Assembly: GCA_021413735.1 (NCBI GenBank)
Contig: JAIOPV010000272.1
Span: 1-64,000 of the forward strand
Source of the DNA: Planctomycetota bacterium
GTDB taxonomy: Bacteria; Planctomycetota; Planctomycetia; Gemmatales; Gemmataceae
Direction of reading: 5' to 3'
Length of the DNA stretch: 64,000 nucleotides
Part shown: in pieces, positions 18,113 to 59,376 of the stretch
How positions within the stretch are numbered: position 1 is the stretch's first letter
Layout of the letters: every line of letters starts with the position of its first letter
Notes under the pieces: generated by a model
The model's database searches: none
The model's input: only the letters and a program-made list of their open reading frames with translations
What the model was told of the DNA's origin: nothing
Translations under genes and position numbers: made by a program

Positions 18113-18158
18113 GGGCGTCTCCGGATGAACATTCAAGGTGTCGAAATCGAGAATGAGG

Positions 18159-22437: not shown

Positions 22438-25400
22438 ATGACCGTTCGCCCTCCAGGTGCTGCGGATGCGAAGGTCCGAATCGCCTGGAGCAATCAGCCT
22501 GCGATTCCTCTTGACGGGTCACGGGATCATCTCCCCACAACCGCAGGCCAGCGTCGCCTTTGGTTGCTCGACCAAATTATTTCCAACCCCGAAGTCTATA
22601 ACGTCTACTTTTTGCTCCGCCTTCGAGGCAGGGTCAATGCCCTCGCCCTGCAGCGGAGTCTTGCGACTGTGGTCGCTCGCCACGCAGCACTGCGCACTCG
22701 ACTCGTCAATGTCGAGGGAATCCTTTCCCAACTGGTAGAGCCTCCGAGTTCGGTGGAGTCGCCAGTCATTGACCTTCGAGCGCACCCCGCAAGTGAACGG
22801 TTTGAGGACGTACGAGAAAGGGTTCACACTGACTCGAAACGACGGTTCGATCTGGCCTCCGGCAACCTCTGGACTGTTCAACTCTACTTACTGGAGGAAG
22901 AAGAGTCCCTGCTTTGGGTGAACTTCCACCATTCGATTATGGATGGTTGGGCCGTGAGCATCTTTTTTCGCGAACTGAGCCAGTGCTACGAGGCATTCTG
23001 CGTTGGGCGTGAGCCATCGTTGTCGATATTGCCGATCCAGTTTGGAGACTTTGCCGCGTGGCAACGTGAATACGCGAAGACTCCTGAATTTCAGCATCAA
23101 TTAGAGGGATGGAAGACTCGGCTGAACCTCCCGCTACCGCCCCTGGATCTCCCAGTTAGCAAAACACGCCCGACCTCGCAAACCTTTCTCGGTGCCACCC
23201 ACAAGTTCGCATTCCCGTCAGAGTTGGTGGTGGCGATTGATGAACTCGCGAGGCGAGAATTGGCGAGCCGATTTCTGGTTGGGTTGGCAGCATTTCAGTC
23301 GATCATGCACCGTTATACAAGGCAGGAGGATCTGCTCATTGGCGTCCCGGTCGCCAACCGTCAGCGACCCGAGACCCGCGAAATCATTGGGTTTTTTACC
23401 AACACATTGGTGTTCCGCACGAATCTCGGAGGCAATCCGACATTTCGCAATCTCCTTGCACGAACACGTCGGACCCGCGACGAAGCATTCACAGGCTCCG
23501 ACATCGACCTGGAATCACTTGTCGAGGCAATTCAACCAGCCCACGACCCCTCACGCCAACCATTCTTCCAGGTCGTGTTTCAGTATCAGAACATCGCGAT
23601 AACCCCCGATCGAATTGGTTCCCACACCGCTGAGGTCGTGCCCGTTCACAATGGCACCGCGATGTTCGATCTGCGGATGGTGCTTGAGGATTCCTCGGAC
23701 GGGGGCCTCTGGGGATGGATCGAATTTAACACTGCTCTCTTCGATAGCCCCGTCATTGAACGGCTCGCGAACCACTACCTGACATTCCTCCAGGCAGCTT
23801 GCACAGAACCGGACAAGACAATCGGTGAGCTGCCGCTGTTGACACTCAGCGAGCGGGAACAACTCGTAATTGGGTGGAATAACACACTGGGTCAATACCC
23901 GATGGATCTCTGCATCCATCAACTCTTCGAGGAGCAAGTTCGTCGTCAGCCCGATGCTGTGGCGGTGATCGCGAATGGTCGCAAGTGGACCTTTCGCCAA
24001 CTGAACGAGAAAGCCAATCAACTCGCTCGGCATCTCCAGTCTCAAGGGGTCGGGCCAGGCACCTTTGTTGGAGTTTGTCTCAAACGATCCCCGGAAATGA
24101 TGACGGCGATCTTGGCTGTACTCAAGGGGGGCAGTGCGTATGTGCCCCTCGACTCAGTGTACCCGCGTGACCGGCTGGCGTTCATGCTGGGAGACACGAA
24201 AGCCGCAGTCGTGTTGACGGAGCAGTCTTTAATCGAACGCCTACCCGAAGGGGCGGCACAATACCTGTGCCTGGATCTGATTGGAACCGAGTTGGATCGG
24301 CTCGATACCGAGAACCTCGGTCCCGTGAGCACGCCCGATGACCGTTGTTATGTGATCTACACTTCAGGCTCGACTGGCAGACCAAAGGGGGTTGTCCTGC
24401 GACACCGAGCTGTGGTGAATACCCTTGACTGGGTCAACACAACGTTTGGAGTTGGCCCATCCGATCGTGTGCTATTCGTGACTTCGTTGAGCTTCGACCT
24501 CTCCGTCTATGACATTTTTGGTGTGCTCGGCGCCGGTGGCTCTGTTCGCGTTGCCGACGAGGAAGAACTTCGCGATCCCGTTGAACTCATGCGAATCCTG
24601 CGGACCGAGCCAATCACAATTTGGGACTCGGCCCCTGCTGCCTTGCAACAGTTGGCTCCGTTTTTCGCACAGGATCGGGGCGGTCAACTCAGGCTGGTGA
24701 TGCTCTCAGGCGACTGGATTCCGGTATCGCTACCGAATCTTGTGCGCGCTGCATTTCCGCAGTCCAAGGTGATGAGTTTGGGAGGTGCGACCGAGGCCGC
24801 AATCTGGTCGAACTGGTACCCGATCGGTCATGTCGATCCATCATGGCCGAGCATCCCTTACGGCAAGCCTATTCGCAATGCCCGCTACCACATCTTGGAT
24901 GATCGACTCCAACCCGTTCCAGTGGGTGTCCCCGGAGAGCTACACATTGGCGGTTTGGTGCTGGCCGATGGGTACTTGAACCGCCCGGAACTGACGGCCG
25001 AACGGTTCATCCCCGACCACCTCACTCCGACTTCGCCTCCTGAACTTGGCCTCCCAAATGCGCCCAGGCTCTACAAGACTGGCGATCTGGCACGTTACTT
25101 TCCAGATGGGAACATCGAGTTCTTGGGTCGAATCGATCAGCAAGTGAAAGTCCGCGGCTACCGGGTTGAACTTGGCGAGATCGAGACTGTGCTCGCTCAA
25201 CACCCCGCGGTACGAGAGGTTGTCGTCAAGAATCACCGGGATGACGCGGGGCATGTGTACCTGGTGGCGTACCTCGTGTTGCGACCGTCGCTCGCGCTGA
25301 ACTCGGCCGAACTCGCGAAATATCTCAAGGCCAAACTGCCTGAGTACATGGTTCCGTCGCAGTTCATGGTCCTTGAGTCCTTGCCGTTGACTCCCAATGG

Positions 25401-26520
25401 CAAACTGGACCGTGCTGCGCTCACGCCACCCGAACTCGTAGTCACCAAGTCAGAGACAGAATTTAAACTACCGACAAATGACGCCGAGAGAGCATTGCAA
25501 GCGATCTGGGAAGAAGTTCTCAAGGTCCGACCCATCAGTGTGACTGATAGCTTCTACGACCTCGGTGGTCACTCGCTGATGGCCGCTGTCCTGATGGCTC
25601 GTGTTGAATCTCAGCTCGGGCACCGACTGCCGCTTGAGTTGTTGTTTTCCACCCCCACAGTGCGCGGGCTTGCAACGCTGATCCAACGCAAACTGGAACT
25701 GGGCCGTGGCTGCCTGGTCCCTCTTCAAACCGAGGGGATAAAGCCGGCGCTGTTCCTCATCGCGGGGGCAGGGGGGCACGTGTTCGCGTTCCATCAATTT
25801 GCGAGGTTACTCGGCTCCGACCAACCAACTTACGGTTTGAAAGCTGTCGGGGTGGATGGGTCGGAGCACCCGCTGGAGAGCATGAAGGAGATTGCATCTC
25901 GGTATCTGAAAGAGATCCTCCACAGCCGTCCGAATGGCCCGTTCATCATTGGAGGCTATTCGATCGGAGCGATCATCGCCTTTGAACTGGCTTTGCAGTT
26001 GCGGGCGGCTGGTATGGAAGTGCCTCGCGTAATCGTGTTCGACATGTTGGCACCGGGCTATCCGCGAAAGCCCGCGTTACCGCGACGCACCTGGTCTCAC
26101 TTGGTCCGTTTCGTGATGTCGCGAGGCAAGATTGCCTATCTCAAGGATCGGTATCGCCGGCTACGGGGGCGGGTGCTTGGGTTGTTGAACCTGCATCGAC
26201 TCGATGCCCCCGGCGTGCCTGGCATGGACGTGGTCCCTCAAGAGAATCTCAAGCGAGTTTGGGGCGCTCTCACAAAAGCCCACGAACATTACTGGCCGTC
26301 GGGCATGTACGATGGCCGCGTGGTTCTCTTCGCCTCCAACACTCCCGAGGACTGGCCCGGTTGTGTCTTCGACGACGACGCCAAGGGATGGAGTCGCTGG
26401 ACAACCGGAGGCGTCGAGATTCACACGGTGCACGCCGGGCACCTCGAAATGTTCCACGAGAGCAATCAGCGTGTCATTGCGGCGCTGTTGCGCGAAGCGA
26501 TCGCGAAGATCGGCAAGTAA
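22438..26520 (+). CDS. Single-module NRPS, C-A-T-TE, cysteine-like A-domain pocket
   Basis: 1360 residues from ATG 22438. Order: condensation domain ~30-460 with canonical HHSIMDG at 164-170; adenylation domain ~480-1000 with YTSGSTGRPKG from 641, YKTGDLARY and NGKLDR; carrier domain with GGHS (Ser1046 is the phosphopantetheine site); thioesterase with GGYSIG (Ser1175) and the catalytic-type His in HAGHLEMFH near 1335. Aligned by eye to GrsA, the ten specificity positions read D-L-Y-D-M-S-L-I-W-K, close to the cysteine code D-L-Y-N-L-S-L-I-W-K; LSGDWIP and LGGATEAAIWS are also typical of Cys-activating domains. The C domain is not the heterocyclising DxxxxD type. A GH-like lipoprotein gene follows after 17 bp. 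Confidence 0.95.
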   Translation: MTVRPPGAADAKVRIAWSNQPAIPLDGSRDHLPTTAGQRRLWLLDQIISNPEVYNVYFLLRLRGRVNALALQRSLATVVARHAALRTRLVNVEGILSQLVEPPSSVESPVIDLRAHPASERFEDVRERVHTDSKRRFDLASGNLWTVQLYLLEEEESLLWVNFHHSIMDGWAVSIFFRELSQCYEAFCVGREPSLSILPIQFGDFAAWQREYAKTPEFQHQLEGWKTRLNLPLPPLDLPVSKTRPTSQTFLGATHKFAFPSELVVAIDELARRELASRFLVGLAAFQSIMHRYTRQEDLLIGVPVANRQRPETREIIGFFTNTLVFRTNLGGNPTFRNLLARTRRTRDEAFTGSDIDLESLVEAIQPAHDPSRQPFFQVVFQYQNIAITPDRIGSHTAEVVPVHNGTAMFDLRMVLEDSSDGGLWGWIEFNTALFDSPVIERLANHYLTFLQAACTEPDKTIGELPLLTLSEREQLVIGWNNTLGQYPMDLCIHQLFEEQVRRQPDAVAVIANGRKWTFRQLNEKANQLARHLQSQGVGPGTFVGVCLKRSPEMMTAILAVLKGGSAYVPLDSVYPRDRLAFMLGDTKAAVVLTEQSLIERLPEGAAQYLCLDLIGTELDRLDTENLGPVSTPDDRCYVIYTSGSTGRPKGVVLRHRAVVNTLDWVNTTFGVGPSDRVLFVTSLSFDLSVYDIFGVLGAGGSVRVADEEELRDPVELMRILRTEPITIWDSAPAALQQLAPFFAQDRGGQLRLVMLSGDWIPVSLPNLVRAAFPQSKVMSLGGATEAAIWSNWYPIGHVDPSWPSIPYGKPIRNARYHILDDRLQPVPVGVPGELHIGGLVLADGYLNRPELTAERFIPDHLTPTSPPELGLPNAPRLYKTGDLARYFPDGNIEFLGRIDQQVKVRGYRVELGEIETVLAQHPAVREVVVKNHRDDAGHVYLVAYLVLRPSLALNSAELAKYLKAKLPEYMVPSQFMVLESLPLTPNGKLDRAALTPPELVVTKSETEFKLPTNDAERALQAIWEEVLKVRPISVTDSFYDLGGHSLMAAVLMARVESQLGHRLPLELLFSTPTVRGLATLIQRKLELGRGCLVPLQTEGIKPALFLIAGAGGHVFAFHQFARLLGSDQPTYGLKAVGVDGSEHPLESMKEIASRYLKEILHSRPNGPFIIGGYSIGAIIAFELALQLRAAGMEVPRVIVFDMLAPGYPRKPALPRRTWSHLVRFVMSRGKIAYLKDRYRRLRGRVLGLLNLHRLDAPGVPGMDVVPQENLKRVWGALTKAHEHYWPSGMYDGRVVLFASNTPEDWPGCVFDDDAKGWSRWTTGGVEIHTVHAGHLEMFHESNQRVIAALLREAIAKIGK

Positions 26521-26537
26521 TCTCAGGAGAGCCTACG

Positions 26538-28097
26538 ATGCGAGCAACACCGACCTCCAACGGCAGCCTGAGTAGTATCCTCGCAGTGTGCCTATTCGGT
26601 GGCATTGTGGGGTGTTCTCCCGCCCCCTCCGCGAACTCCACTGAGGGCGCCATCGACGCACCTCCAAGGCATTCCGTCTCGCATGGTTTGGGTCTCCACC
26701 TGGCTGCGGTTCAGGATTGGTCTCGGGAATGGGCGTTCGTGGACGCCTTCAAAGGGGCTCGCGAATGGACCCCCGTCGGTGGGGACGGGAAGCTAGCGTT
26801 CGACAAGAATGGCAACCCTCTGCTGGGTTCCGGACAAACTGCGTGGACTCTTCTCCTCCGCGAACTTGGTGGCCACTATCCGGCCGGCAAATACACCGTG
26901 ACCTGGAAAGGGACTGGTGAGTTGGAGGCTCGGCGTTGGGATGTCACTCGTGTGATCGCGACCGCGAAGGGTCGTGCTGAGATCGACGTCCGCCCGGATG
27001 ATGGAGGCATCCAGATTGATCTTAAATCGACTGACCCCAAGGATCCGATCCGGGAAATCCAGGCGTGGATGCCGGGGTTCGAGAACGCCAAATCGCCGTT
27101 TCATCCGCTGTTTGTCAAACGCCTCACACCGGCGAAGGTCGTCCGGTTCATGGACTGGCAACGGACCAACAACAGCACTCTCTCGAAGTGGGCCGACCGA
27201 CCCAAACCCACCGATCCCACGTATGCCACGGAACGCGGCGTCCCTGTCGAGATCATGGTTGCGCTGGCCAACTCAGCCAAGGTCGATCCATGGTTCTGCA
27301 TGCCCCACCTGGCTGACGACGACTACGTGAAGAACTTCGCTCGCATGGTCAAAACCGAACTCGACCCAAGCCGGACGGTGTATGTGGAGTTCAGTAATGA
27401 GGTCTGGAACTGGCAATTCAATCAAACATCCTGGGCTCGCGATCGAGGCAAAGAGCGCAAGCTTGGTCAGCCAGAACATGCGAGGTGCTACTCCGAGCGA
27501 GCCATTGAGGTCATGAAAATCTGGGAGCAGGAGTTTGGGCGAGATCGGCTCGTTCGCGTCCTCGGGTCACAGGCGGCGGTGCCATGGTTGACTGAGCAAA
27601 TCCTCACCTGGAAGGATGCCTATAAGCACGCCGATGCTCTCGCGATCGCTCCTTACTTTGGACACGAATACGGCGACCCGAAGAAAGTCGATGCCACAGT
27701 GAAAATGTCTCCGGCCCAATTGCTGGATGCGTTGGACAAGGAGATTGATGGGCCGAATCGGGACGTGATCAGGAAACAAGCAGAAGTCGCGAAGAAGTAC
27801 AAACTCGGTCTCATCGCCTATGAGGGCGGTCAACATCTCGTGGGGCACGGTGGCGCGGAGAATAACGCCGACCTCATGAACCTGTTCCATGCGGCGAACC
27901 GAGACCCACGCATGTATGACCTCTATGCCAAGCACCTCCGACACTGGGCTGATGCCGGAGGTGAACTGTATGTGCTCTTCAACTATGTCACGGCCCCTGG
28001 GAAGTGGGGCTCATGGGGGCTTTTGGAGTATCAGGATCAACCCATTACCGAGGCCCACAAATACCGGGCATTCGTGGACATCGGGAGCAAACGATAG
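26538..28097 (+). CDS. Lipoprotein with glycoside-hydrolase-like domain
   Basis: 519 residues from ATG 26538, with CAGGAGA upstream and only 17 bp after the NRPS stop, so it is almost certainly co-transcribed with it. A lipoprotein signal ends in IVGC (Cys26). Residues ~50-180 form a beta-rich domain with KYTVTWKGTGELE; residues ~195-500 look like a TIM barrel with RFMDWQRTNNST, VYVEFSNEVWNW (Glu288) and LIAYEGGQH (Glu429). Those two glutamates sit where GH-A-clan enzymes have the acid/base (strand 4) and nucleophile (strand 7); that assignment is my inference. The same domain occurs in the convergent 1396-residue neighbour. The substrate could be the locus's own polysaccharide. Confidence 0.8.
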   Translation: MRATPTSNGSLSSILAVCLFGGIVGCSPAPSANSTEGAIDAPPRHSVSHGLGLHLAAVQDWSREWAFVDAFKGAREWTPVGGDGKLAFDKNGNPLLGSGQTAWTLLLRELGGHYPAGKYTVTWKGTGELEARRWDVTRVIATAKGRAEIDVRPDDGGIQIDLKSTDPKDPIREIQAWMPGFENAKSPFHPLFVKRLTPAKVVRFMDWQRTNNSTLSKWADRPKPTDPTYATERGVPVEIMVALANSAKVDPWFCMPHLADDDYVKNFARMVKTELDPSRTVYVEFSNEVWNWQFNQTSWARDRGKERKLGQPEHARCYSERAIEVMKIWEQEFGRDRLVRVLGSQAAVPWLTEQILTWKDAYKHADALAIAPYFGHEYGDPKKVDATVKMSPAQLLDALDKEIDGPNRDVIRKQAEVAKKYKLGLIAYEGGQHLVGHGGAENNADLMNLFHAANRDPRMYDLYAKHLRHWADAGGELYVLFNYVTAPGKWGSWGLLEYQDQPITEAHKYRAFVDIGSKR

Positions 28098-28106
28098 TCT
28101 CAGGTC

Positions 28107-31100
28107 TTACCGTGGGGTGTAGGTCCAACTCAGGATGTCGAGATTTCCGGCCGTTGACCCTGTGCCCCCAGTGAACCCAGCGTAGGCGGTTGGTCCAGCC
28201 ACCGCTGCGATGTTGACCTTGGTGTTAAAGGTCACGGACTTGGCAAGTGTCACATCCGTCAGCGTCACTTTGAGAGTCGTTCCGTCGTAGCTCATCTGCG
28301 ATCGGAAGATGTGCCCACTGCGAAGATTCAACCCGGTGCCTGCCAAACTCAGTTGGTTGACGATCTGGCCCTCCGAGTCCACAGCGATTCGTCCGTTCAC
28401 GACATCGAACCGAACCGCCACGCCGGGCCGAATGTTCGTGAAGCCGTGTCCTTCGTTCCAGTTGCCGAGAGCGGTCGTCCCCTGGCTTTGCAAGGCGAAG
28501 GTGAAGCCGTTGCCGATGTTCGCCGAGTTTCCACCAATCGCACCAAGCCGGAACCGGAACGAGTTATTGAACTTGGTTACCCCAACCTTTGTCTGCGTGA
28601 AGGCGCTCCCGGCCTGATACTGACCGTTGACCAACCGCAGCGAAGTTCCCGCCATCGTTGCGGCCCCGTTGCGAGTCAGGCTCGTCAAGGATGTTCCCAC
28701 TGGCAGCGCGATGGTGATTGCGGACGTTGCTGTCTTGCCCGCAGCGGCGGCGGTCACGCTGGCAGTCCCGGCGGTCGCTGGAGCCGTGTACACACCAGCC
28801 GCCGAGATAGTCCCCGCACCCACCTCGGACCACGTGACACCACTTGGGGTCATGGCATTGCCGAACTGATCGGTTCCACTGGCCACGAACGCCTGGGTGG
28901 CATTCGCTGTCAGTGAAGTGGTCCCTGGAGTGACCACCAGACTCGTGAGCGTCTGGGCGACAGTGACAGGAACTTCGCTGTTTGCCGTGAGGCCGCTCGC
29001 ATCGGTTGCCTTCACATGGAGAACGTAGTTGCCGGCCTGGCTGAAGGTGGCAGTCGTTGCTTTGCCCGCGTTCGAGCCCGAGTAGGTGAAACTCACAGCA
29101 CCAGGCCCGGAGGCCATCCACCAGGTGTAGGTCAAAGTGCTCTCGCCGCTGTCATCCGTGCCTACCGCCGTGATGTTCACGGTCTTGCCGGTAATCGGTG
29201 AAATTGGCGCGGTGATTGCAACTGTAGGAGCCTGATTCGGCAGCGGCGAAACCGAAAGCGGAGGCGACACAGGTGGGGGTGACACAGGTGGCGAAACTGG
29301 CGGCGAAACCGGCGGCGAAACCGGCGGGGAGACTGGCGGTGAAACCGCGCCGCCATTCGGAGCATCAAACTTCAGCGAGTAGAGCGTGTAGCCCGCGTTC
29401 ACGATCCGAACACGGACAACGTTCAACCCTTCCTGGAGTTTCACAGACAGAGGCACCGAGTCCGCGAAGTCGTTCGGCGACCACTGGCTATCGTAATTTG
29501 GACCCGTCACAGGTAGCGTGAGTGTGCCCGCGTCCTGACCGTTCACCAGAATCTGAATCTGACCGCCCGCATCCACAGCCGCATACCGGACGCTCAGTGA
29601 GTAAGTCCCAGACTGCGGTGCTCGCACCATGTAATCGCGGGTGTCGTCGTTCTTCAGATAGCGTGGATAGGGGTCTGTGGTTGTGGCAGCGCCGACCGAG
29701 TTCGTTGCCAGCACTTCGCCGCTGATCGCGGTTCCAATCGTCGGAGCGACCACTGGAGCCTGCTGCACTTGCTGAATCCCCAGAATCTTCGGAGCGCTCA
29801 GGTTGTTGATGTCGTTGGTCATGCCCCAGGTGCCATACTGCGTGTCGTAGTTCGTCGGACCGGCCATGAACCAGTTGAACAGGCCACCACCACGAGCGTA
29901 CCAGTCGTTCATGTACTTCACGGTCAGGTCTTTGATCCGCGGATCAAGCGATGCGGCCTTCTTCGCCGCGATGTTGTTCGGGCCGAATGTATCCGGGCCA
30001 CCCTCGTAAGCCAGATTCGCCAGACCATAGTAGGTCGAGATCGCGGCTGTCTGGTCGAGGACCGGATCGTTTGCGTCGATCGCTTTTGAGAGGTCCGCGA
30101 GAATCTGATCGACGGACAGGTTGGTCTGCTGGTCGTCGTCGCCAATCGCGAAGTAGGGTGCGCCCGCTGTGCCATAGAGGAACTGCTTCGGATCGCCGTA
30201 GGTCTTCTGGATGAAGTCCAGTTGCGTCTGGAGGATGTACGGCACTGCCACCTGCGTGGCGAGAACTGGCCGAACCTGATTACCAATCGCGTCCTGGCCC
30301 CAGACCGTTGCGAACGTCTTGCTGATCTCCGTGATGCGGCGAGCAGTGCGGCGGAAGGCCCAATCCCACTGGTTCGCAGCAGCAGTCTCGCCGGGGTACG
30401 CCAGGTTCGACCCGCCGGCCTGCACTTCCGCGAGGGCAGCCTGCATGTTCACGTTGCTCTGCGAGAAGCCACCGTTCCACACCTCGTTCGAGTACTCCAG
30501 ATACACAGCACGGTCTGGGTTCAGCGACGACTTCAGCAAGTTCGCGAGCTGCGTGACGTAGGCGTCGTTCGCCCCAACTGGAATGTTGATCCACAGATCC
30601 TTGCCGGTGAGGTTGGCGAGTTGGATTGCGTATTCCCAGGCCGCACCCTTATCGGTCGATTGAATGGCGTCGGTCACCTTGGCGCGAGCGCCCCAGTTCA
30701 CCACAGCGTTGTTGTTCGTCTGGACGAAGTCCATGAACCGCAGCGTCGTGTAGGGCTGAATCGTTTTCAGGAAGTCGTTCGTAAATACCTGCGTGGTGTC
30801 CGCGGCGTAGCCTGGGCGAATGAGCTTGATGTCTTTCACTCCGGTGCCGACGTTCTTGAAGTTGAGCCCCAAGTACCAGCCGCCGTCCGAGTCGCTCGCG
30901 TTCAAGGTCACGTCAGCGGTCGTCTGGTTGGTGGCTGCGTTGTACACGACGTTGGAGACTCCACCCTGGCCCGCCCACATGGAGAGGTCCGCCTTGCCGG
31001 TGAACGACAGCTTGTAGACGCCGTTGTAGATGTGAGCGGTGTTCAAGAAACCCGACTGGAGGATGGTGTAGAAGTCCTGGGTTGGCCAGCCGTTTGCATC

Positions 31101-32297
31101 AGTCATTGCCGGTTGCCCGGTGCTGATGCTGGTGAACTCGCGAGCCTGCTTAATCATGTCCACAAAGACATTCTGCAACGACCAGTCTTTGATGCCGTCG
31201 ATGTTCGCACCGACCGGCACGGTCGAGGCAGCCGTGACGCTGCTGTACTTCCCGATCGCAAGTCCAGAAGTCGAACCGGTCACGAGTCCGCCGTGAGCAT
31301 CGCGGTTCATCGTCGGACTCGCCGTGCCAACCAGCTTCCAGGTTCCATCGGCCCCGGTATCGGAGACGTAGCCCGAGATCAGTGTGCCGTTGCGAATCAG
31401 CTTGACCCAGGGTTGCGCACCCACCGCGACGGCGGCGCTCTGAGTGACCCCCACTCCCGACCCTTCGCGAGCTAAGAACACGGCCTGCCCTGCTGTCACG
31501 GTGACGGACGCGAAGGCATCGCTGGCTCCCGTTCCCGCCCGGAACATCACGCCGCCTTGTGCGCCGGTGCCGGAAAGAGAATCGACTCGGGCGATTACGT
31601 TGGCATCGCCCATGATGGTCTGATAGGCAAAGTGAGATAAATCAGCGGCGCCGGCGAGCGAACCGGCACCGCTGACGGTATAGACGCCGGTCGTGGCAGT
31701 CAGAGACCCGGCAGCCGTGGGGCTGCCAATGTCTTGATCTAGCCAACCGTTATCGGCGTATACCTGACTTGTGGGGATCACAGCATTCGGCGTCGAAGCG
31801 CTGGACCACGCCAGCTTGATGTTCGACGCGCCCGTGCGATCCACGTATTCGAGTTTCAGATCGTAGACTTCGCCAGCCGTGAGGCTGATCGTTCCTGTCC
31901 AGGTGTTCGCGGTGGTGGCGGAAGCCGAGTCGATCAACTTCTGGCCGTTCACCCACAACCGCACCCCTTCATCCGCCGTCACCGAGAATGTGTAAGCCTC
32001 GGTGTACTGAGCCTGCACCTGCCCGGTCCAACGCACCGAGTACCCGTCGGCCGGCAGAGCCGCGACCGGAGCTGCAGTGCCCCAGTTGAAGTTGACGCTG
32101 GCATCGGTGCGAGTCGCGGCGAGTGTGGAGAAGTTTGAATCGCTGTAGTAGTTCGCAACGAGACCGGTTCCGATTCCCAAAGCTGCGGGGACTTCTCGGC
32201 ACTCGAGTTGCTCAACTGAAAGTAAGCGAGGGTTGGTACGAATTGGCTGAGTCGTTTGGAAGAGGCTGGCCACCCAACGGGACAGAAAACGACGCAT
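28107..32297 (-). CDS. Large surface protein: PA14, GH-like, lectin domains
   Basis: 1396 residues from ATG 32297 (CCGGAG upstream; 60 further upstream codons look untranslated). The N-terminus carries LLSVEQLECREVPA, a motif near the start of many planctomycete exported proteins. Then: PA14 (~50-190, GLVANYYSDSNFS, FSVTADEGVRLWVNGQ); a concanavalin-like DUF1349-type domain (~200-330); a GH-like barrel (~440-850) with RFMDFVQTNNN, EYSNEVWN (Glu605) and LAYEGG (Glu765); a CBM6/35-like domain (~880-1000); a SPPV-repeat linker; PKD- and Big-like domains; and a C-terminal legume-lectin-like domain (GNGFTFALQSQG, VAVRFDVVNGRIAVD). Three or four carbohydrate-binding modules make a surface role with polysaccharide likely. 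It ends 9 bp from its convergent paralogue. Confidence 0.85.
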   Translation of the reverse strand: MRRFLSRWVASLFQTTQPIRTNPRLLSVEQLECREVPAALGIGTGLVANYYSDSNFSTLAATRTDASVNFNWGTAAPVAALPADGYSVRWTGQVQAQYTEAYTFSVTADEGVRLWVNGQKLIDSASATTANTWTGTISLTAGEVYDLKLEYVDRTGASNIKLAWSSASTPNAVIPTSQVYADNGWLDQDIGSPTAAGSLTATTGVYTVSGAGSLAGAADLSHFAYQTIMGDANVIARVDSLSGTGAQGGVMFRAGTGASDAFASVTVTAGQAVFLAREGSGVGVTQSAAVAVGAQPWVKLIRNGTLISGYVSDTGADGTWKLVGTASPTMNRDAHGGLVTGSTSGLAIGKYSSVTAASTVPVGANIDGIKDWSLQNVFVDMIKQAREFTSISTGQPAMTDANGWPTQDFYTILQSGFLNTAHIYNGVYKLSFTGKADLSMWAGQGGVSNVVYNAATNQTTADVTLNASDSDGGWYLGLNFKNVGTGVKDIKLIRPGYAADTTQVFTNDFLKTIQPYTTLRFMDFVQTNNNAVVNWGARAKVTDAIQSTDKGAAWEYAIQLANLTGKDLWINIPVGANDAYVTQLANLLKSSLNPDRAVYLEYSNEVWNGGFSQSNVNMQAALAEVQAGGSNLAYPGETAAANQWDWAFRRTARRITEISKTFATVWGQDAIGNQVRPVLATQVAVPYILQTQLDFIQKTYGDPKQFLYGTAGAPYFAIGDDDQQTNLSVDQILADLSKAIDANDPVLDQTAAISTYYGLANLAYEGGPDTFGPNNIAAKKAASLDPRIKDLTVKYMNDWYARGGGLFNWFMAGPTNYDTQYGTWGMTNDINNLSAPKILGIQQVQQAPVVAPTIGTAISGEVLATNSVGAATTTDPYPRYLKNDDTRDYMVRAPQSGTYSLSVRYAAVDAGGQIQILVNGQDAGTLTLPVTGPNYDSQWSPNDFADSVPLSVKLQEGLNVVRVRIVNAGYTLYSLKFDAPNGGAVSPPVSPPVSPPVSPPVSPPVSPPPVSPPLSVSPLPNQAPTVAITAPISPITGKTVNITAVGTDDSGESTLTYTWWMASGPGAVSFTYSGSNAGKATTATFSQAGNYVLHVKATDASGLTANSEVPVTVAQTLTSLVVTPGTTSLTANATQAFVASGTDQFGNAMTPSGVTWSEVGAGTISAAGVYTAPATAGTASVTAAAAGKTATSAITIALPVGTSLTSLTRNGAATMAGTSLRLVNGQYQAGSAFTQTKVGVTKFNNSFRFRLGAIGGNSANIGNGFTFALQSQGTTALGNWNEGHGFTNIRPGVAVRFDVVNGRIAVDSEGQIVNQLSLAGTGLNLRSGHIFRSQMSYDGTTLKVTLTDVTLAKSVTFNTKVNIAAVAGPTAYAGFTGGTGSTAGNLDILSWTYTPR
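29260..29345 (-). repeat. 12-bp tandem repeat encoding the SPPV linker
   Basis: About seven imperfect copies of GGCGGCGAAACC (plus-strand reading) lie inside the large surface protein gene; one copy carries three extra bases. On the coding strand they give repeated Ser-Pro-Pro-Val, a stiff extended linker between the carbohydrate-binding domain and the PKD/Big domains. The near-identical units make length variation by slippage likely. Confidence 0.85.
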
Positions 32298-33038
32298 CGA
32301 AAAACTCCGGAATCGGTGCAGGCGAAAGAGGCACGCCGGAACGCCCTCAACAAAGGGGTTCTGACGTGGAAGCCAAATGAGCGAAGGGGCGAGCAAGTAC
32401 GAGGCGTCCCGATGCGGCGCAAAACGCCACATTGAAGGCAGTTCGGGGCGAACTTTGAGGGGCGAGAGCCTTCCCAAAGGAAGGTGGGCGGAAAGTGTCT
32501 CGGCGAAATCTCAGTCGAGAGGCCGCGAAGTCAAAACCAAATCCATACCGTGGTTATTACCACAGTTTCAGCCGTCATCTGATCTCCAACGCTTCGAGGA
32601 CGACGAGCGGGAAACGTTAGAGTCCCAAATTAATAGAACAGAAAAAAGGTGAAATCCGACCTGAAATTGGCATCCGAGTCTGCTTGTGACGATTTTGCCT
32701 GAAAATCTAGGCGTTTTGGGGGAATACTGAGGGGCAAAAATCTTTCAAATTTTTCCTGCCCGATCTGATTTCATCTCAATTATCCCCAGGTCCACTACTC
32801 TCCGCCGGGATGTGAACTCTCACTTCAAACATTAAAAAAGCCCAATTTGCGCAGGCTCTTGCCGTGATCCGAGAACACCACTTCTCAAAATTGTTCTGGG
32901 GGCATATTGTCCTGCCAGCATGAATTGCGTTTGCGGTGCGATTATTGGAAGTGATAACTGAAGGCCGGAGAGTTTCGGCTGGCGCGGTTCCGAGCTGAAT
33001 TGATGGTTCCGAACGTGGCGTGCGAACAGCGTCCGGAA
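32298..33038. other. 741-bp intergenic region between the surface protein and the A-T-TE NRPS
   Basis: This is the longest gap in the window and it is clearly more AT-rich than its surroundings, especially 32620-32900. It must hold the promoter of the surface protein and the 3' end of the long minus-strand run. A probable terminator lies at 32834-32860. A 91-codon frame on the plus strand at 32377-32652 is charged and patternless and is not called. No RNA gene was recognised. Confidence 0.5.
32834..32860 (-). terminator. Probable intrinsic terminator of the polysaccharide/NRPS operon
   Basis: Read on the minus strand: AAGAGCC, a loop of about 11 bases, then GGCTTTTTT. Seven base pairs including one G-U, with the 3' arm running into a six-T tract. 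It lies about 180 bp after the A-T-TE NRPS stop and before the surface protein gene, so it probably ends the transcript that starts near 48 kb. Confidence 0.55.
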
Positions 33039-35855
33039 TTAAACGCGATCCCATTTCTGCGACTTGTCGGCTCGTTCAATCGAAGCAACCACCTGCCGAG
33101 CCAGCGACTCGATGTTGCTTTCGTGAAAAATTTCCAGATGGCCGAGCGGAACGGTGTGAACCTCGACCAAGCGGTTGGTGTACTGCTCCCAACCAAGATC
33201 CGCGTCAACGTGAACGACACTTTCCCACACGTCTATCGGCAACTCAGAACGAAACAGTGTGACGCTTCCGTTGAGCCGTCCTTGTGGGTGATATCGTCGC
33301 GTCGCTCGTTGCATTGCCAACCAGACGGCGCGGATTGATTCTTGAGGCAGCGAGTCGAGCCCTGGGTGATAGGGGAAGAGAACTCGTTCGAGCCCAAGGA
33401 GCCGCAGAACACGGTTGCCGATGTTGCGGAACCGTTGGGCCGCATATCGGAAACCACCCTGTCGGCCAAATAGATTGCGAAGGTGAAGCCGAAGTCGTCG
33501 CAAGGTTGACAGCCGAGTCTGATAGCCCGGCGCCGGCATATCAAAAACAATTACAAGCGGCACCGTGTGGCCAAGAGCCTCAAGTTGGAACGCAACCTCC
33601 AAGGCAACATGGGCTCCGACCGAGTAGCCAGACACGACGTATGGCCCCTGTGGGCGAGCAGCGGTGATCTCGCGAACGTACTCCGCCGCTATCTCCTCGA
33701 AGGACTCCAGCGGTGGGCGGTTCCCATCGACTCCGATCGCTTTGAGTCCATACACCGGATAGTCCGCGCCGAGAAGTTTGGCGAACTTCTGGAATGTAAA
33801 CACATGACCACCAACGCCAGCGATCATGAATAGAGGCGGTTGAGTGCCCTCGGTGTGAAGTGGTACGAGCGAGTGCTCGGAACCAGCCTCCAACCCGTGC
33901 TGAATGAGGGTCGCCAACTTCTCGACCGTGTTCGCCTCGGACATTGCTCCAAGCGGGATCGTAAACCCCAATTGCTGACGGATGCGAGACACAATCTCGG
34001 CTGCTTGGAGCGACGATCCGCCAAGTTCAAAGAAGTTGTCCGTGACACCAAACCCGAGGCGACCAAGAACCTCCGTCCAGATACTCAGCACATCTTTCTC
34101 GGCATCGGTTCGGGGCTGAACACTTTCCTGATCGGAAGTGAAGAGAGCAGGCTCAGGAAGATTTCGGCGATCGACCTTGCCATTGGAGGTCAGTGGAAGG
34201 GCATCCAGAAATGTGATCGACGCTGGAGTCATGTACGCGGGCAGATGCTTGCGCAGGTGTTGACGGAGTGTCTCAGGGTTCTGCTGTTCCCCCGCTCTGA
34301 GCACAACATATGCAGCCAACTGTGGGGGCTGGCCCCAAACCTTCACGGCCGCGGCAGCGATAGCGGGATGGGAAGCGAGCGCCGATTCCACCTCCCCGAG
34401 TTCGATCCGGAAGCCACGAATTTTTACCTGATCGTCACGCCGACCCAGATATTCAAGCACGCCATCCGCGCGCCAACGCGTCAAATCGCCAGTCTTGTAC
34501 ATTCGCGCGACGTGAGACACGAAGGGATCGGGAACAAACCGTTCTTCGGTCAACTCGGGACGATCAAGGTAACCAAGAGTCACTCCGTCGCCACCAATGT
34601 ACAACTCGCCGACTTCCCCTGGTGGGACAAGTTGCATTGCGTCATTCAGGACATAGAGCCTGGTGTTCGCGATAGGTTTGCCAATCGGAACGTCGCCAGT
34701 TTCGGGATCGTTCGAGCCGTAGTCGTGGACACAGCAACCCACGACGGTTTCGGTCGGTCCATACTCGTTGACCACGCGAGTCTGTGGAGCGTGTCGTCGC
34801 CACCATGCAGCCGCAGCGGCTGGCAGAGCCTCACCGCCAACAACGAGAACCCTGGCCAAACCTGCCGCTTGACGTGGATCAAGGGTTCGACTCAGAATCG
34901 AGAGGTGAGCAGGTGTGAGCTTCAACAGTGTGAGATCGCGATGGCGGGTCAATGCGTCCAGCAGGGCATCGACCCCCGCATCATCCGGCAGAAGGTGGAC
35001 CGGCTTACCGACGATCAAGGGGACGAGCAGACTGGTCACAGTGAGATCGAAACTGAGAGGCGAGTGAACCAAAGAGCCAGTTCCTTCGTCGGCGTTGTAG
35101 GCTCGCGCTGCCCATGTGAGATAGTTGACCAGACCCCGGTGATGGACCATCACGCCTTTCGGGCGGCCCGTCGATCCGGAGGTATGGAGGACATAGGCCA
35201 AGTGATCTGGGCCGCAGCTCACGTCGGGAGGTGTTGACGGCAGCCTGTTCAGAGAGGCAGTTGAGGAGTCGAGATTGAGAACCGGAACACCTTTGGGTGG
35301 AACAACGATCCCACTCGCAGACTCCACCCCCAACACGGCACGAACATTCGCATCCGCCACGACGAATGCCAGTCGCTCCGGTGGATGGGAGAGATCCAGA
35401 GGGACATAAGCAGCTCCAGCCTTGAGCACCCCCATTAACCCGGCGACGAGGTCTGGGGACCGTCCAAGTGCGAGCGCAACACGATCATTGGCTCCGACTC
35501 CGAGGTTACGGATCGCATGAGCAATGCGATTCGCTCGCGCGTCCAGTTCGGTGAATGTTTGGGATGAATTGCCGGCAGTCACAGCAACGTCATTCGGAGT
35601 TCGCGTGACCTGTGCTGCGAAGAGATCGTGAGTACAGAGATTTCTGGGATAGTCCGCTGCGGTCGCATTCCAGTCTTCAAGAAGCCTCTGTCGGTCGGCC
35701 GGCCTCACAAGGTCAAACGGGTCAGCGGCAGCCTCCAAGGGGGCTGTAGGATTGGTGAACAGGCCTGCGGTGGCAACGACTCCAAGGCCAGTATGACCGG
35801 ATAAGTCGTTCGCCGCCGCGCCGTGAAGAGTGTCGTTGTGATTTGGAGTTCGCAT
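33039..35855 (-). CDS. NRPS-like A-T-TE protein, asparagine-like A-domain pocket
   Basis: 938 residues with no condensation domain. Adenylation domain ~55-560 (LHTSGSTGRPKG, NEYGPTETVVG, YKTGDLTRW, NGKVDR), carrier domain with LGGSSL (Ser615), thioesterase ~650-930 with GYSVG (Ser745) and the His region in HTVPLGHLEIFH. By eye the specificity positions read D-L-T-K-V-G-E-V-G-K; the usual asparagine code is D-L-T-K-L-G-E-V-G-K and the aspartate one D-L-T-K-V-G-H-I-G-K, so Asn is the better fit. Without a C domain it could load one amino acid and let the TE hydrolyse it or transfer it to a sugar or amine. It is the last gene of the polysaccharide run, 136 bp after glmS. The start at 35855 lacks a clear Shine-Dalgarno site. 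Confidence 0.93.
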   Translation of the reverse strand: MRTPNHNDTLHGAAANDLSGHTGLGVVATAGLFTNPTAPLEAAADPFDLVRPADRQRLLEDWNATAADYPRNLCTHDLFAAQVTRTPNDVAVTAGNSSQTFTELDARANRIAHAIRNLGVGANDRVALALGRSPDLVAGLMGVLKAGAAYVPLDLSHPPERLAFVVADANVRAVLGVESASGIVVPPKGVPVLNLDSSTASLNRLPSTPPDVSCGPDHLAYVLHTSGSTGRPKGVMVHHRGLVNYLTWAARAYNADEGTGSLVHSPLSFDLTVTSLLVPLIVGKPVHLLPDDAGVDALLDALTRHRDLTLLKLTPAHLSILSRTLDPRQAAGLARVLVVGGEALPAAAAAWWRRHAPQTRVVNEYGPTETVVGCCVHDYGSNDPETGDVPIGKPIANTRLYVLNDAMQLVPPGEVGELYIGGDGVTLGYLDRPELTEERFVPDPFVSHVARMYKTGDLTRWRADGVLEYLGRRDDQVKIRGFRIELGEVESALASHPAIAAAAVKVWGQPPQLAAYVVLRAGEQQNPETLRQHLRKHLPAYMTPASITFLDALPLTSNGKVDRRNLPEPALFTSDQESVQPRTDAEKDVLSIWTEVLGRLGFGVTDNFFELGGSSLQAAEIVSRIRQQLGFTIPLGAMSEANTVEKLATLIQHGLEAGSEHSLVPLHTEGTQPPLFMIAGVGGHVFTFQKFAKLLGADYPVYGLKAIGVDGNRPPLESFEEIAAEYVREITAARPQGPYVVSGYSVGAHVALEVAFQLEALGHTVPLVIVFDMPAPGYQTRLSTLRRLRLHLRNLFGRQGGFRYAAQRFRNIGNRVLRLLGLERVLFPYHPGLDSLPQESIRAVWLAMQRATRRYHPQGRLNGSVTLFRSELPIDVWESVVHVDADLGWEQYTNRLVEVHTVPLGHLEIFHESNIESLARQVVASIERADKSQKWDRV

Positions 35856-35991: not shown

Positions 35992-37824
35992 TCATTCCAC
36001 GGTGACGCTTTTCGCGAGGTTCCGGGGTTTATCGACATCGCAGCCACGCAGGACTGCGATCTCGTAAGCCAGCAATTGGAGTGGGATAGCCGCGACAATC
36101 GGTTGGAGGTACTCGGGGACATCGGGAACAGTGATGACATCATCGGCGACCGCCGCAACATCTCGATCGCCTGGACTACAAACAGCGATCACCGGCCCTC
36201 GCCGAGCCTTGATCTCCTGCATGTTGGACATCACCTTGTCGAATACGTTGCCTCGCGGTACCAGGAAGACGCTCGGAGTGTGTTCGTCCACCAATGCGAT
36301 TGGCCCATGTTTCATCTCGGCAGCGGCGTACCCTTCTGCGTGAATGTAGCTGATCTCCTTCAATTTCAACGCCCCCTCGAGCGCAGCCGGGAAAAGATAT
36401 TGGCGTCCCAGATACAACACGTTGTTCGCCTCTGCGTACTTCCTGGCAATTCGCTTCACATGATCGTGGCAGGTTAATGCCTGCCGAAGCGTGTCGGGAA
36501 GCGCCCGCAACTCCGCGATGATCCGTTGCCCCTGGGTGGTGGACAAATGCCGTGTGCGTCCCAAATACAACGCGAGCATCGCCAGCACCGTGACCTGCGA
36601 TGTAAATGCCTTCGTGCTTGCCACCCCAATCTCGGGGCCAGCGTGAAGATAGACGCCACCACACGCTTCACGGGCAATGCTGCTGCCAACGACATTGCAG
36701 ATCGCGAGCGTGGTATGACCCATCCGATTGGATTCACGCAATGCGGCGAGCGTATCGGCTGTTTCGCCTGACTGCGTGATTGCCAACACGACCGTGTTGC
36801 GATCAATCGGCGGATTGCGGTAACGGAACTCGCTGGCGTATTCCACCTCAACCGGCAAGCGGGCAAGTTCCTCGAAAAGATATTCCCCAACGAGGCCCGC
36901 GTGATAGCTTGTTCCACAACCGGTGATGATGATGCGGTTGATCTGCCTCAGTTGCTGAGGCGTGAGGTTGAGACCGCCAAAGTGGGCCGTGGCGTCGTCA
37001 TCGGCAAGTCGGCCTCGCATGGCATTCGCGACCGTGTCTGGCTGCTCGTAAATCTCTTTCAGCATGAAATGTGGATAGTCACCCAACTCCGCACCGCCAT
37101 CACCCAGGCATTGTTTAATGTCATGGACTGATGCAGAGACCGGCGTGAAGTTCTGATCGCGAACTTCCCAATCCTCGCTGGTCAGAGTGCAGATTTGTCG
37201 GTCGTTGAGATAGACCACTTTGTCCGCGTAGCCAGCGAGTGCGTTCGCGTCAGAGGCCAGGTAGGAGCCGTCTTTGCCAACCCCGATAACCAACGGGCTT
37301 CCCAGTCTCGCCCCCACGATGACACCCGGCTCCTCTTTGGACATCACCGCGATGCCATACGTCCCTTTCACGAGCGATAACGCTTGTTGAACAGCCTCCG
37401 CGAGATCGCCGTGGTAGTAGTTCCCGATGAGATGGGCGAGAACCTCTGTGTCGGTGTCGGAATTGAACTTCACGCCTTGCGATTGCAGTTGTTGCTTGAG
37501 CAGCGAGAAGTTCTCGATCACACCATTGTGGATGACCGCGAGAGTCCCGGTGCTATCCATGTGTGGGTGAGCGTTGCGATCCGTTGCACCACCGTGGGTG
37601 GCCCAGCGAGTGTGGCCAATGCCATGGCAACCCGGAGCCGGACGCGCGGCAACGAGCTTCCCGAGTTCGGCCAACCGACCAGCCTTCTTGCGAAGATGGA
37701 ATTCATTGCCCGTGCCTGTCACCATGCCAGCGCTGTCGTATCCGCGGTACTCCAGCCGACTCAGACCTGCCAACAGAATGGGTGAAGCCTCACGACGTCC
37801 CGTGAAGCCAACAATCCCACACAT
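35992..37824 (-). CDS. glmS: Glutamine-fructose-6-phosphate aminotransferase
   Basis: Makes glucosamine-6-phosphate, the first step to UDP-GlcNAc and other amino sugars. The start at ATG 37824 is certain: it exposes Cys2 (MCGIVGFTG) as the N-terminal nucleophile of the glutaminase domain and has TGGAGG upstream. At 610 residues it matches Escherichia coli GlmS. RWATHGGATDRNAHPH belongs to the glutaminase half; two SIS domains follow (GCGTSYHAGLVGEYLFE, ITQSGETADTLAALRE), and the C-terminus ends in PRNLAKSVTVE as in the family. Its place inside the polysaccharide run suggests a dedicated copy that supplies amino sugar for the polymer. No glmS ribozyme was recognised upstream. Confidence 0.97.
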   Translation of the reverse strand: MCGIVGFTGRREASPILLAGLSRLEYRGYDSAGMVTGTGNEFHLRKKAGRLAELGKLVAARPAPGCHGIGHTRWATHGGATDRNAHPHMDSTGTLAVIHNGVIENFSLLKQQLQSQGVKFNSDTDTEVLAHLIGNYYHGDLAEAVQQALSLVKGTYGIAVMSKEEPGVIVGARLGSPLVIGVGKDGSYLASDANALAGYADKVVYLNDRQICTLTSEDWEVRDQNFTPVSASVHDIKQCLGDGGAELGDYPHFMLKEIYEQPDTVANAMRGRLADDDATAHFGGLNLTPQQLRQINRIIITGCGTSYHAGLVGEYLFEELARLPVEVEYASEFRYRNPPIDRNTVVLAITQSGETADTLAALRESNRMGHTTLAICNVVGSSIAREACGGVYLHAGPEIGVASTKAFTSQVTVLAMLALYLGRTRHLSTTQGQRIIAELRALPDTLRQALTCHDHVKRIARKYAEANNVLYLGRQYLFPAALEGALKLKEISYIHAEGYAAAEMKHGPIALVDEHTPSVFLVPRGNVFDKVMSNMQEIKARRGPVIAVCSPGDRDVAAVADDVITVPDVPEYLQPIVAAIPLQLLAYEIAVLRGCDVDKPRNLAKSVTVE

Positions 37825-37867
37825 TGGCAGTCCTCCAGGCTGAAATCGAGCAATCTTCACGACGCAG

Positions 37868-38317
37868 TCAAACCGCAACTGGCTCCTCGATGACCATAAA
37901 CCCACAGCCCTCATAGAGAGGTCGGAGTTCCGATTTGCTCGTGAGCATGACGTATGGCACACCGCGTTCAAACGCTTGATTCAAAGCCTCCGCGACGAGT
38001 GCAGTTGCGATTCCCTGGCCACGCGCATCGGGCCGGACCACGACGTAATCGAGTTGCCAATTCACGGGAGCGTTGACCAGGAGAAACCCATCTACTGAGC
38101 CATCTGCTGCACGATGGAGGCACACGAACCGAACTCCGGACCAGATTGCGAGGAACTTGGACCGAGTCCGGAACTGCGTTGCCACGAGATCCCAGAGTTG
38201 CTTGCAAGCCGGCTCGTCCGTGAGGAAGTCCGATACCGGCAGGAAGTCGATGGGTGTCTGAACATGCTGTCGTTGAACTGGCCGACAAATGTATTGGATC
38301 TCAGATTGGGCTGTCAT
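37868..38317 (-). CDS. GNAT-family N-acetyltransferase
   Basis: 149 residues from ATG 38317, with AGGTG upstream; a longer frame to 38419 would overlap the glycosyltransferase gene. The acetyl-CoA-binding GNAT core is visible as QLDYVVVRPDARGQGIATALVAEALNQA (the RGQGIA turn) followed by VPYVMLTSKSELRPLYEGCGF. The N-terminal half (FLTDEPACKQLWDLVATQFRTRSKFLAIW) would shape the acceptor site. It sits 43 bp before glmS in the polysaccharide run, so acetylation of an amino sugar or of an amino-acid substituent is plausible, but GNAT substrates cannot be read from sequence. Confidence 0.88.
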   Translation of the reverse strand: MTAQSEIQYICRPVQRQHVQTPIDFLPVSDFLTDEPACKQLWDLVATQFRTRSKFLAIWSGVRFVCLHRAADGSVDGFLLVNAPVNWQLDYVVVRPDARGQGIATALVAEALNQAFERGVPYVMLTSKSELRPLYEGCGFMVIEEPVAV

Positions 38318-38382: not shown

Positions 38383-39579
38383 TCATTTGCAACTTGGTTC
38401 GCGCTGGGTCCGAACCCAATCCGTCTGGGGCTTCGCAAAAAAACCGAGATAGAGCGGGATCTTCCTCACGACATAGAGAGGAGTTCTGAGCAGAGTTCCC
38501 AGTGGAAGTGTTGCGCGACCAAATCGCATCCAGGCTGAGGTCAACCCCATGACTGCGAAGGCGATCATAGTGGCAAGTACGACTGCGGGGACCGGCGATC
38601 CCCAGAGGAGACCCCAGGCAATGAGCACAGCGAGACTCACTCCGGACACCATCAGCAATGCTGACAGCGGGGGCACGCCGAGTTCCAATGCCAGCGCCAA
38701 CGGTGCCAATCGACCTCGGATCGCTGCCCGAAGTAATCGCGGAACTCCAGCAAGAATCACCTGTAAATGTCCATGTTCCCAGCGCCGTCGCTGAGTCCCT
38801 GCCGCCTGATCCGCGAGCGGGAACTCGGCGTCCACCTCGACATCAGGGGCGAACATGGGTGAGTGTCCCGCAATCACGAGATCGACCGCGAGTTGCATAT
38901 CCTCGACGATGTGACCATGACCGAGTTTCGCCTTTGCGATGATTTCCCAGGGAAACGCCATACCCGTTCCGGTGAGCAAACACGGCAGTCCAAGTCGGTG
39001 GAGGCCCAGGGGGCGGACGACATTCTTGATGAGGAAAGCGAACGCCGCTATGCGACGTTCTGCTCCCGCTCCCGACGGCGGGTTCATGCGATACGCGGCT
39101 TGAATCGGTCGCTGGTGGGTAAGTGCTCGCTCGACGAGCCGAGCCAATCCACCCGGAGCGAGCACACAATCTGCATCGAGAATCACCACCACGGCGGGTG
39201 GATTTGAGCGGAGCGAGTCGATGCCGAACGCGAGAGCGTATCCCTTCCCACGACGAGATGCATCGAACCGTTCGACAACATCAACTCCATGAGCGAGGAC
39301 AATATCGCGAGTGCGATCAGTGCAGTTATCCGCAACGACTAACACCCGGTCTTCTGGTCCAAGGTTCATTGCGACGGCGTTAAGAGTGCGAGCCAGCCCC
39401 AACTCTTCGTTGTGTGCGGGGATCAAGACCACGCACCTCGCGCGCGTGGTCGTTTGCCGCTTTGGGGTGCGGATACGCCTGCAGCTCGCGACAAAGCACT
39501 CGATTGCGAGGATGCCGAGAGGGACCGAGCAGACGACGGCGAGGGTCCACGCGACCGGTTCGAGCAAGTCCCAGTTCAT
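38383..39579 (-). CDS. Membrane GT2 glycosyltransferase (processive type)
   Basis: 398 residues. An N-terminal helix (VAWTLAVVCSVPLGILAIEC) anchors a GT-A domain: VVLIPAHNEELGLARTL, DNCTDRTRD, VVVILDADCVLAPGG (DxD type), VEDMQLAVDL (ED) and QRRRWEHGH (Q/RxxRW). C-terminal helices follow (LSALLMVSGVSLAVLIAWGLLW, VVLATMIAFAVMGLTSAW). This set is typical of cellulose-synthase/hyaluronan-synthase-like GT2 enzymes, so it may add repeated sugars, not just one. Its ATG overlaps the stop of the GT4 gene (ATGA at 39576-39579), and AAGGGTG precedes it. Confidence 0.93.
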   Translation of the reverse strand: MNWDLLEPVAWTLAVVCSVPLGILAIECFVASCRRIRTPKRQTTTRARCVVLIPAHNEELGLARTLNAVAMNLGPEDRVLVVADNCTDRTRDIVLAHGVDVVERFDASRRGKGYALAFGIDSLRSNPPAVVVILDADCVLAPGGLARLVERALTHQRPIQAAYRMNPPSGAGAERRIAAFAFLIKNVVRPLGLHRLGLPCLLTGTGMAFPWEIIAKAKLGHGHIVEDMQLAVDLVIAGHSPMFAPDVEVDAEFPLADQAAGTQRRRWEHGHLQVILAGVPRLLRAAIRGRLAPLALALELGVPPLSALLMVSGVSLAVLIAWGLLWGSPVPAVVLATMIAFAVMGLTSAWMRFGRATLPLGTLLRTPLYVVRKIPLYLGFFAKPQTDWVRTQREPSCK

Positions 39580-40838: not shown

Positions 40839-40864
40839 GTTGTGTTGGGTGAAATAGAGCGGGG

Positions 40865-43986: not shown

Positions 43987-44106
43987 TTTTGGGCTCCGGT
44001 TCAAGGCACGAGCACGACGGAATGACTTGCGTGCAAAACCGATGCCCACACAAGCAGATTCACTTTGCGACAGCGATTTTGTCCCGGCTTGCGAACTCAA
44101 CAGACT

Positions 44107-52262: not shown

Positions 52263-52293
52263 TGCCAGTCTCAACACAGCAGGGGTTCGCACC

Positions 52294-53367: not shown

Positions 53368-53391
53368 CCACTCAGTCCGAAGGATTCGCCG

Positions 53392-54159: not shown

Positions 54160-54199
54160 TTTCAATCCCATCCTGTCCGACGATACTAGAGAAAATCCC

Positions 54200-59346: not shown

Positions 59347-59376
59347 CCGCTGCGGCAGCTTGCCCAAGGGAACACC

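Follow-up and report, generated by a model that had tools for sequence, protein, structure and literature searches.

Two NRPS genes and two genes for glycoside hydrolase (GH)-like surface proteins lie as mirror images beside a polysaccharide locus in a planctomycete of the family Gemmataceae, and the question that they raise is whether an assembly line for peptides has anything to do with the making of a polymer. We analysed the surrounding 64,000 nucleotides (contig JAIOPV010000272.1, positions 1 to 64,000), called the window below. From the sequence alone, an original prediction had proposed that the locus makes a polysaccharide or glycolipid modified with an amino acid and displays proteins that bind or cleave it.

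Genes of the NRPS/GH block

The four genes at the centre of that prediction are all present with the domains and strands it had given them, as judged by Pfam and ORF positions:

22438..26520, + strand: NRPS1, C-A-T-TE, ATG start (Pfam Condensation, AMP-binding, PP-binding, Thioesterase)
about 22522-23868 (C), 23926-25404 (A), 25492-25683 (T) and 25747-26478 (TE), + strand: domains of NRPS1
26538..28097, + strand: GH1, clan GH-A-like lipoprotein candidate, ATG start
28107..32297, - strand: GH2, exported, with PA14, GH-like domain (31214-29823), PKD and lectin-like parts, ATG at 32297
33039..35855, - strand: NRPS2, A-T-TE (Pfam)
about 35621-34176 (A), 34094-33903 (T) and 33836-33087 (TE), - strand: domains of NRPS2

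In NRPS1 the motifs HHSIMDG (C), LGGHS (T) and GYSIG (TE) are intact, as is the C-terminal His; NRPS2 retains LGGSS (T) and GYSVG (TE), and Asp and His are also found in the TE domains. From these motifs, both proteins are predicted to be thiotemplate NRPSs whose TE triads are ordinary and complete. GH1 starts 17 bp past the NRPS1 stop codon and has a signal peptide with a site that by eye is lipobox-like (LFGGIVGC). In GH2 the GH-like region covers residues about 422-885, and the Pfam match to an L-type lectin was sub-threshold. The GH2 N-terminus, LSVEQLECREVPAA, resembles the leader that is common in large planctomycete surface proteins.

GH1 and GH2 are convergent, with the predicted 9 bp (28098-28106) separating their stop codons, and the expected common domain was borne out by 31% identity over 481 columns (E 2e-53). 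The two NRPSs had been said to share a T-TE half. These halves are indeed alike, yet the alignment (42% identity) spans 892 columns and therefore the A domain is common to both as well. Within the whole 9.8 Mb genome, GH1 and GH2 are the only two copies of the GH-like domain, no further NRPS carries a TE of this type, and other A-domain proteins are distant.

We extracted the 10-residue specificity codes with GrsA as the reference, for which the procedure returned the expected DAWTIAAICK. The codes were DLYDMSLIWK for NRPS1 and DLTKVGEVGK for NRPS2, which we take to resemble known Cys and Asn codes, respectively. The earlier guess of Asn and Cys activation fits these predicted specificities. 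Six relatives (G022, G094, G029, G040, G071 and G067) keep the Cys code as DLYDMSLIWK, DLYDFSLIWK, DLYDLSLIWK or DLYNMSLIWK. In G022 the code of the second NRPS is Gly-like instead, indicating that the NRPS2-type partner varies.

The GH-like domain

Searches with the GH-like domain gave no Pfam, NCBIfam or significant PDB sequence match. The AF2 model of GH1 (pLDDT 95.8, pTM 0.94) was compared using VIA, in which bacterial heparanase/beta-glucuronidase of GH79 (Z 24.2, rmsd 2.8, 285 aligned) and arabinofuranosidase of GH51 (Z 24.1, rmsd 3.4, 294 aligned) were tied, at identities of 10-12%. The candidates for the catalytic Glu residues are residue 288, within SNEVWN, and residue 429, within YEGG; all homologues keep SNE and nearly all keep YEGG. 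The modelled GH1 domain is a predicted clan GH-A TIM barrel of unassigned family with both catalytic Glu residues, an Asn-Glu acid/base and a Glu nucleophile on later strands, and the hydrolase is probably active.

Homologues of the domain were found in Planctomycetota, Cyanobacteria, Armatimonadota, Chloroflexota, Acidobacteriota, Lentisphaerae, Verrucomicrobia, Spirochaetes and Proteobacteria. The original prediction had allowed that such proteins may also occur alone. Of the 80 best GH loci, about 66 have at most one polysaccharide gene in the flanking DNA examined. The other roughly 14 show at least two, a proportion indicating that the family has other settings too.

The polysaccharide locus

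The predicted polysaccharide genes are real and extend from 38383 to 55210 (Pfam, NCBIfam). They are given here with the gene that lies between them and NRPS2:

35992..37971, - strand: glucosamine-6-phosphate synthase-like protein (GATase and two SIS; Pfam)
38383..39579, - strand: GT2a glycosyltransferase, nearest NCBIfam EpsU, below cut-off
39576..40940, - strand: GT4 glycosyltransferase, nearest NCBIfam EpsE, below cut-off
40865..43438, - strand: Gfo/Idh/MocA oxidoreductase fused to NAD epimerase (Pfam)
42991..44100, - strand: GT2b glycosyltransferase, our marker for the polysaccharide locus
44107..45720, - strand: Wzy candidate by position and conservation in related loci, with no Pfam or NCBIfam match
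45663..47324, - strand: Wzx flippase (Polysacc_synt_3; Pfam)
47150..48298, - strand: GT2c glycosyltransferase (Pfam)
48789..51104, - strand: Wzc/PCP-like chain-length protein with degenerate tyrosine-autokinase similarity, all matches below cut-off
51480..52262, + strand: initiating phosphoglycosyl transferase (Bac_transf; Pfam)
52243..53367, + strand: hexapeptide-repeat acyltransferase candidate
53392..55210, + strand: FkbM and class-I methyltransferases

Parts of a Wzx/Wzy pathway are thus present in the initiating transferase and the Wzx flippase. The true start of the Gfo/epimerase gene is probably downstream of the ORF start, since the ORF overlaps GT2b; relatives of this fusion lie near GT2b in G022, G071, Hyphomicrobium and a Pirellulales MAG. 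No match to an OPX outer-membrane exporter came up in the window genes scanned, small ORFs aside. The window proteins scanned gave no match to a PKS or KS domain, though related loci have one, nor did an exosortase turn up there.

Two other groups of genes lie in the window. PSCyt1/PSCyt2/PSD1 and DUF1501 genes (55278-62879) are typical of planctomycetes and apparently unrelated to the polysaccharide locus. At 14936-18136 there is a cytochrome P450 fused to a flavodoxin/FAD/NAD reductase, with a CYP102-like architecture. This gene is found in only this genome among 95 of the family (E 1e-60) and so was probably acquired recently; its presence in 1/95 genomes also made it of no use as a negative control for co-occurrence.

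Origin of the mirror layout

The mirror layout had been treated as a unit, and this did not survive comparison with the closest relative, G022, where the parts sit at four separate places: GH1 at C3:345 kb, GH2 at C3:3.20 Mb, the polysaccharide operon at C2:1.79 Mb, with the same gene order from GT2a to methyltransferase as in the window, and two NRPSs in tandem at C3:3.69 Mb, adjoining GNAT, GT2 and DegT aminotransferase genes. A recent inverted duplication was ruled out. The members of each pair diverge from each other far more than from their G022 orthologues (identity about 70% for GH1, 66% over 1164 aa for GH2 and 66-79% by domain for NRPS1), and the block contains no long inverted repeat. 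The inverted repeats that we found are short and 70-89% complementary, the longer ones lying between homologous NRPS domains. From the scatter in G022 together with the divergence of the pairs, we conclude that the block is arranged locally and did not come from a palindromic duplication. On the sequence comparison, the mirror symmetry is not ancestral and its neatness is an accident.

Co-occurrence of NRPS, GH and polysaccharide genes

The queries were GT2b, the NRPS2 thioesterase and GH1, and the samples were the 95 genomes of the window's family and a phylum sample, 391 further genomes taken evenly across the phylum. A TE was called strong at E below 1e-25, a stricter threshold picked after seeing the data. 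Within the family, 16 genomes have GT2b and 11 have a strong TE, and all 11 of the latter are GT2b-positive (Fisher p 6e-11; by genus, 9/9 and p 1e-6), where the p values here and below take genomes as independent, which they are not. At the looser threshold of 1e-20, 11/14 TE genomes are GT2b-positive (p 2e-8). The weaker genomes (G036, G092 and G093) have other NRPS types, with different codes and architectures, and lie outside the GT2b-positive set. Strong homologues of GH1 behave similarly, with 9/10 in GT2b-positive genomes (p 9e-8; 4e-4 at the genus level).

One of the outcomes that the original prediction had named as speaking against it, relatives with the polysaccharide genes but no NRPS or GH-like gene, is seen in part: five family genomes (G006, G012, G026, G043 and G090) have GT2b but lack a TE of this type, and most of the best GH loci show fewer than two polysaccharide genes, as given above.

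In the phylum sample, GT2b occurs together with the TE in 18 genomes (p 2e-12) and with GH in 14 (p 2e-6). The genes lie within about 35 kb of each other in 10 of the 18 for GT2b and TE and in 7 of the 14 for GT2b and GH; the corresponding linkage p values, 1e-12 and 8e-9, assume uniform placement and are a guide only. All three are within 25 kb in G353, G370 and G411. In G022, G071, G094 and G040, by contrast, the NRPS gene is distant from the polysaccharide locus. A mirror-tree test of TE against GT2b divergence across genomes found no clear correlation (Spearman 0.04) that would point to common transfer of the two.

The expectation that NRPS, GH-like and polysaccharide genes are linked beyond chance is thus upheld by the phylogenetic profile and by physical linkage in distant lineages. 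We consider a functional link between the NRPS and the polysaccharide to be likely, and it is more likely than not that GH1 acts on the same polymer.

An exchangeable assembly line in related loci

In the Spirochaetales MAG L293, a single strand carries Bac_transf, Wzx, Wzy-like, glycosyltransferase and GH genes, a further glycosyltransferase, an A-T-TE protein (835 aa), a C-A-T protein (1028 aa) and a glutamine-amidotransferase protein. In L324, the run also holds an A-T-KS-AT-TE protein. In Hyphomicrobium (L321/L274), A-T-C-A-T-TE adjoins GT2a, GT4 and Bac_transf, with GT2b, Wzx and GH further along the same contig; the GH gene is found in 2/249 genomes of this order, a rarity that fits arrival as an island. 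Neorhizobium (L323/L309) has a similar GT/GH locus with Formyl-A(LLM)-T and KS, where LLM is an inserted luciferase-like monooxygenase.

Within the planctomycetes, the distant G370, G411, G353 and G429 have Formyl-A(LLM)-T followed by KS-AT-KR-DH-T-TE, and in G334, G148 and G158 the slot holds KS-AT-KR-DH-T-TE. In G026, FkbH-T-TE adjoins GT2b-GT4 (FkbH recognised by eye; Pfam finds T and TE only), and in G029 a Cys-type C-A-T-TE lies 1.5 kb from a GT2a homologue. The slot modules are interchangeable (Cys or Asn NRPS, FkbH-T-TE, or NRPS plus PKS), usually ending in T-TE.

Some loci were noted individually. Inside the polysaccharide locus of L149 (16583-19849), a domain that by eye is FkbH-like is fused to T-TE, which suggests that glycerate may be loaded. 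L222 (11141-19999; genome G314) has an FkbH-like protein, a stand-alone A, a T-TE protein and a P450 beside GT2b. The NRPSs of L211 (13095-17840) and L323 (1655-6289), in planctomycete and Neorhizobium polysaccharide loci, have an N-terminal formyltransferase, a luciferase-like monooxygenase inserted in A and Gly-like codes, and lie beside KS-containing genes.

What the assembly line may make

Our preferred reading, to which we give a probability of roughly 0.4, is that the Wzx/Wzy exopolysaccharide locus of the window includes a clan GH-A hydrolase, together with an exchangeable assembly line that makes a substituent or a partner molecule of the polymer. NRPS2 would load Asn and NRPS1 Cys, with NRPS2 acting before NRPS1, and the single C domain of NRPS1 would couple Cys with an acyl or aminoacyl donor from upstream. 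The TE would then pass the product to an acceptor, most likely one of the polymer's sugars or sugar nucleotides, creating an (amino)acyl substituent. GH1, probably a lipoprotein facing the periplasm, might trim or proofread the polymer as it grows, in the manner of PslG with Psl, and GH2 would be its secreted relative with carbohydrate-binding modules.

Co-occurrence so far above chance suggests that the enzymes either furnish the slime with a component other than sugar or produce a molecule that is used together with it. Since very different acyl-making modules lie beside the same glycosyltransferases and hydrolase, the module is most easily seen as supplying a variable non-sugar group. That the NRPS product becomes part of the polymer is possible, at somewhat less than even odds. 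Counting against it, no enzyme that transfers the product onto the glycan was identified, and the TE domains may merely hydrolyse.

Nearly as likely as a polymer substituent is a free molecule that serves the same lifestyle. The NRPSs would then make, for example, an acyl-Cys, an Asn-Cys or a cyclic thiolactone, acting as a biofilm signal or metallophore that never joins the polymer and is co-selected via surface life. This tentative alternative agrees with the ordinary, complete TE triads and with NRPS genes that are often far from the polysaccharide locus, and it has a planctomycete precedent in the stieleriacines, a biofilm-active class of N-acyl amino acids (PMC7293339). It accounts less well for a presence that follows one glycosyltransferase-defined type of polysaccharide instead of NRPSs at large, for the single-strand operon with glycosyltransferases and GH in L293, or for FkbH-T-TE in the same setting.

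Chance neighbourhood, in which rearrangement put the NRPS/GH block beside an unrelated polysaccharide locus, would fit the four separate places in G022 and the many GH relatives outside polysaccharide loci in the DNA examined. The co-occurrence in the family (p 6e-11) and the repeated linkage in other classes and phyla have already largely refuted it, and we consider it improbable. An assembly line whose lipid or peptide product anchors, primes or caps the polysaccharide instead of substituting its repeat unit, as that of a capsule-cluster PKS might, is slightly less probable still: PKS modules fill the slot in several planctomycetes and passages of PMC3908369 place type I PKS in wcb/rkp capsule clusters, but a long lipid is not what the Cys and Asn codes or the size of a single module would lead one to expect, and the window proteins scanned include no PKS.

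Relation to known systems

Among described systems, Eps of Myxococcus xanthus is a Wzx/Wzy exopolysaccharide whose locus includes a glycosyl hydrolase, EpsB, of obscure biochemistry (PMC7484181). The window has glycosyltransferase and Wzx parts in common with it, along with candidate Wzy-like and PCP-like parts, and a hydrolase candidate, GH1, likewise accompanies the locus; in contrast, the text of PMC7484181 has no NRPS. The near NCBIfam relatives EpsU (188/700 bits), EpsE (212/400), EpsD (43/370) and EpsV (23/800) all miss their cut-offs, and a search for the EpsD family in control genomes, M. xanthus not being among them, also gave only matches below cut-off.

Passages of PMC6813494 describe PslG of the Pseudomonas aeruginosa Psl system as a membrane-associated glycoside hydrolase with two catalytic Glu residues that acts during polymer synthesis. 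GH1 resembles it as a candidate membrane-associated hydrolase with two catalytic Glu candidates, whereas the gene set differs, and those passages describe no NRPS for Psl. By analogy with PslG (PMC6813494) and EpsB (PMC7484181), GH1 may have a role in polymer synthesis or turnover.

In the rkp/wcb capsule clusters, the type I PKS RkpA/WcbR is encoded among genes for capsule biosynthesis and export, according to passages of PMC3908369. An assembly-line enzyme is thus encoded within a polysaccharide cluster there as here, although it is a PKS instead of an NRPS, and a gene of the GH1 family is unmentioned in those passages. Exosortase A exopolysaccharide systems also tie an AMP-binding enzyme, the AMP-forming ligase TIGR03098, to an exopolysaccharide; unlike them, the window shows no exosortase among the genes scanned, and NRPS1 (239.6 bits) and NRPS2 (223.2 bits) stay below the 592.35 cut-off.

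Assembly-line enzymes in capsule clusters (rkpA/wcbR, PMC3908369) and AMP-forming ligases with exosortase loci (NCBIfam TIGR03098) are therefore already known. Literature searches for NRPS or luciferase-monooxygenase NRPS in planctomycete exopolysaccharide loci found no description, and the literature searched describes neither the NRPS form nor an exchangeable slot, nor a tie to the GH1-type hydrolase family or such a spread over phyla. A wider reading, which we hold to be rather unlikely, is that at least Planctomycetota, Spirochaetota and Alphaproteobacteria share a widespread exopolysaccharide system with a dedicated, unnamed clan GH-A hydrolase family and a standard slot for a swappable NRPS/PKS/FkbH line, whose TE would transfer a non-sugar acyl or aminoacyl group, containing Cys in the window's family, onto the polymer.

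If true, this would be a bacterial route for decorating surface polysaccharides with assembly-line products, and it would join natural products and polysaccharides, two fields that are annotated apart. The unnamed hydrolase family could be a tool for the study of biofilm polymers. An exopolysaccharide bearing thiols from Cys, if that is what these planctomycetes make, would have metal-binding, redox and cross-linking properties.
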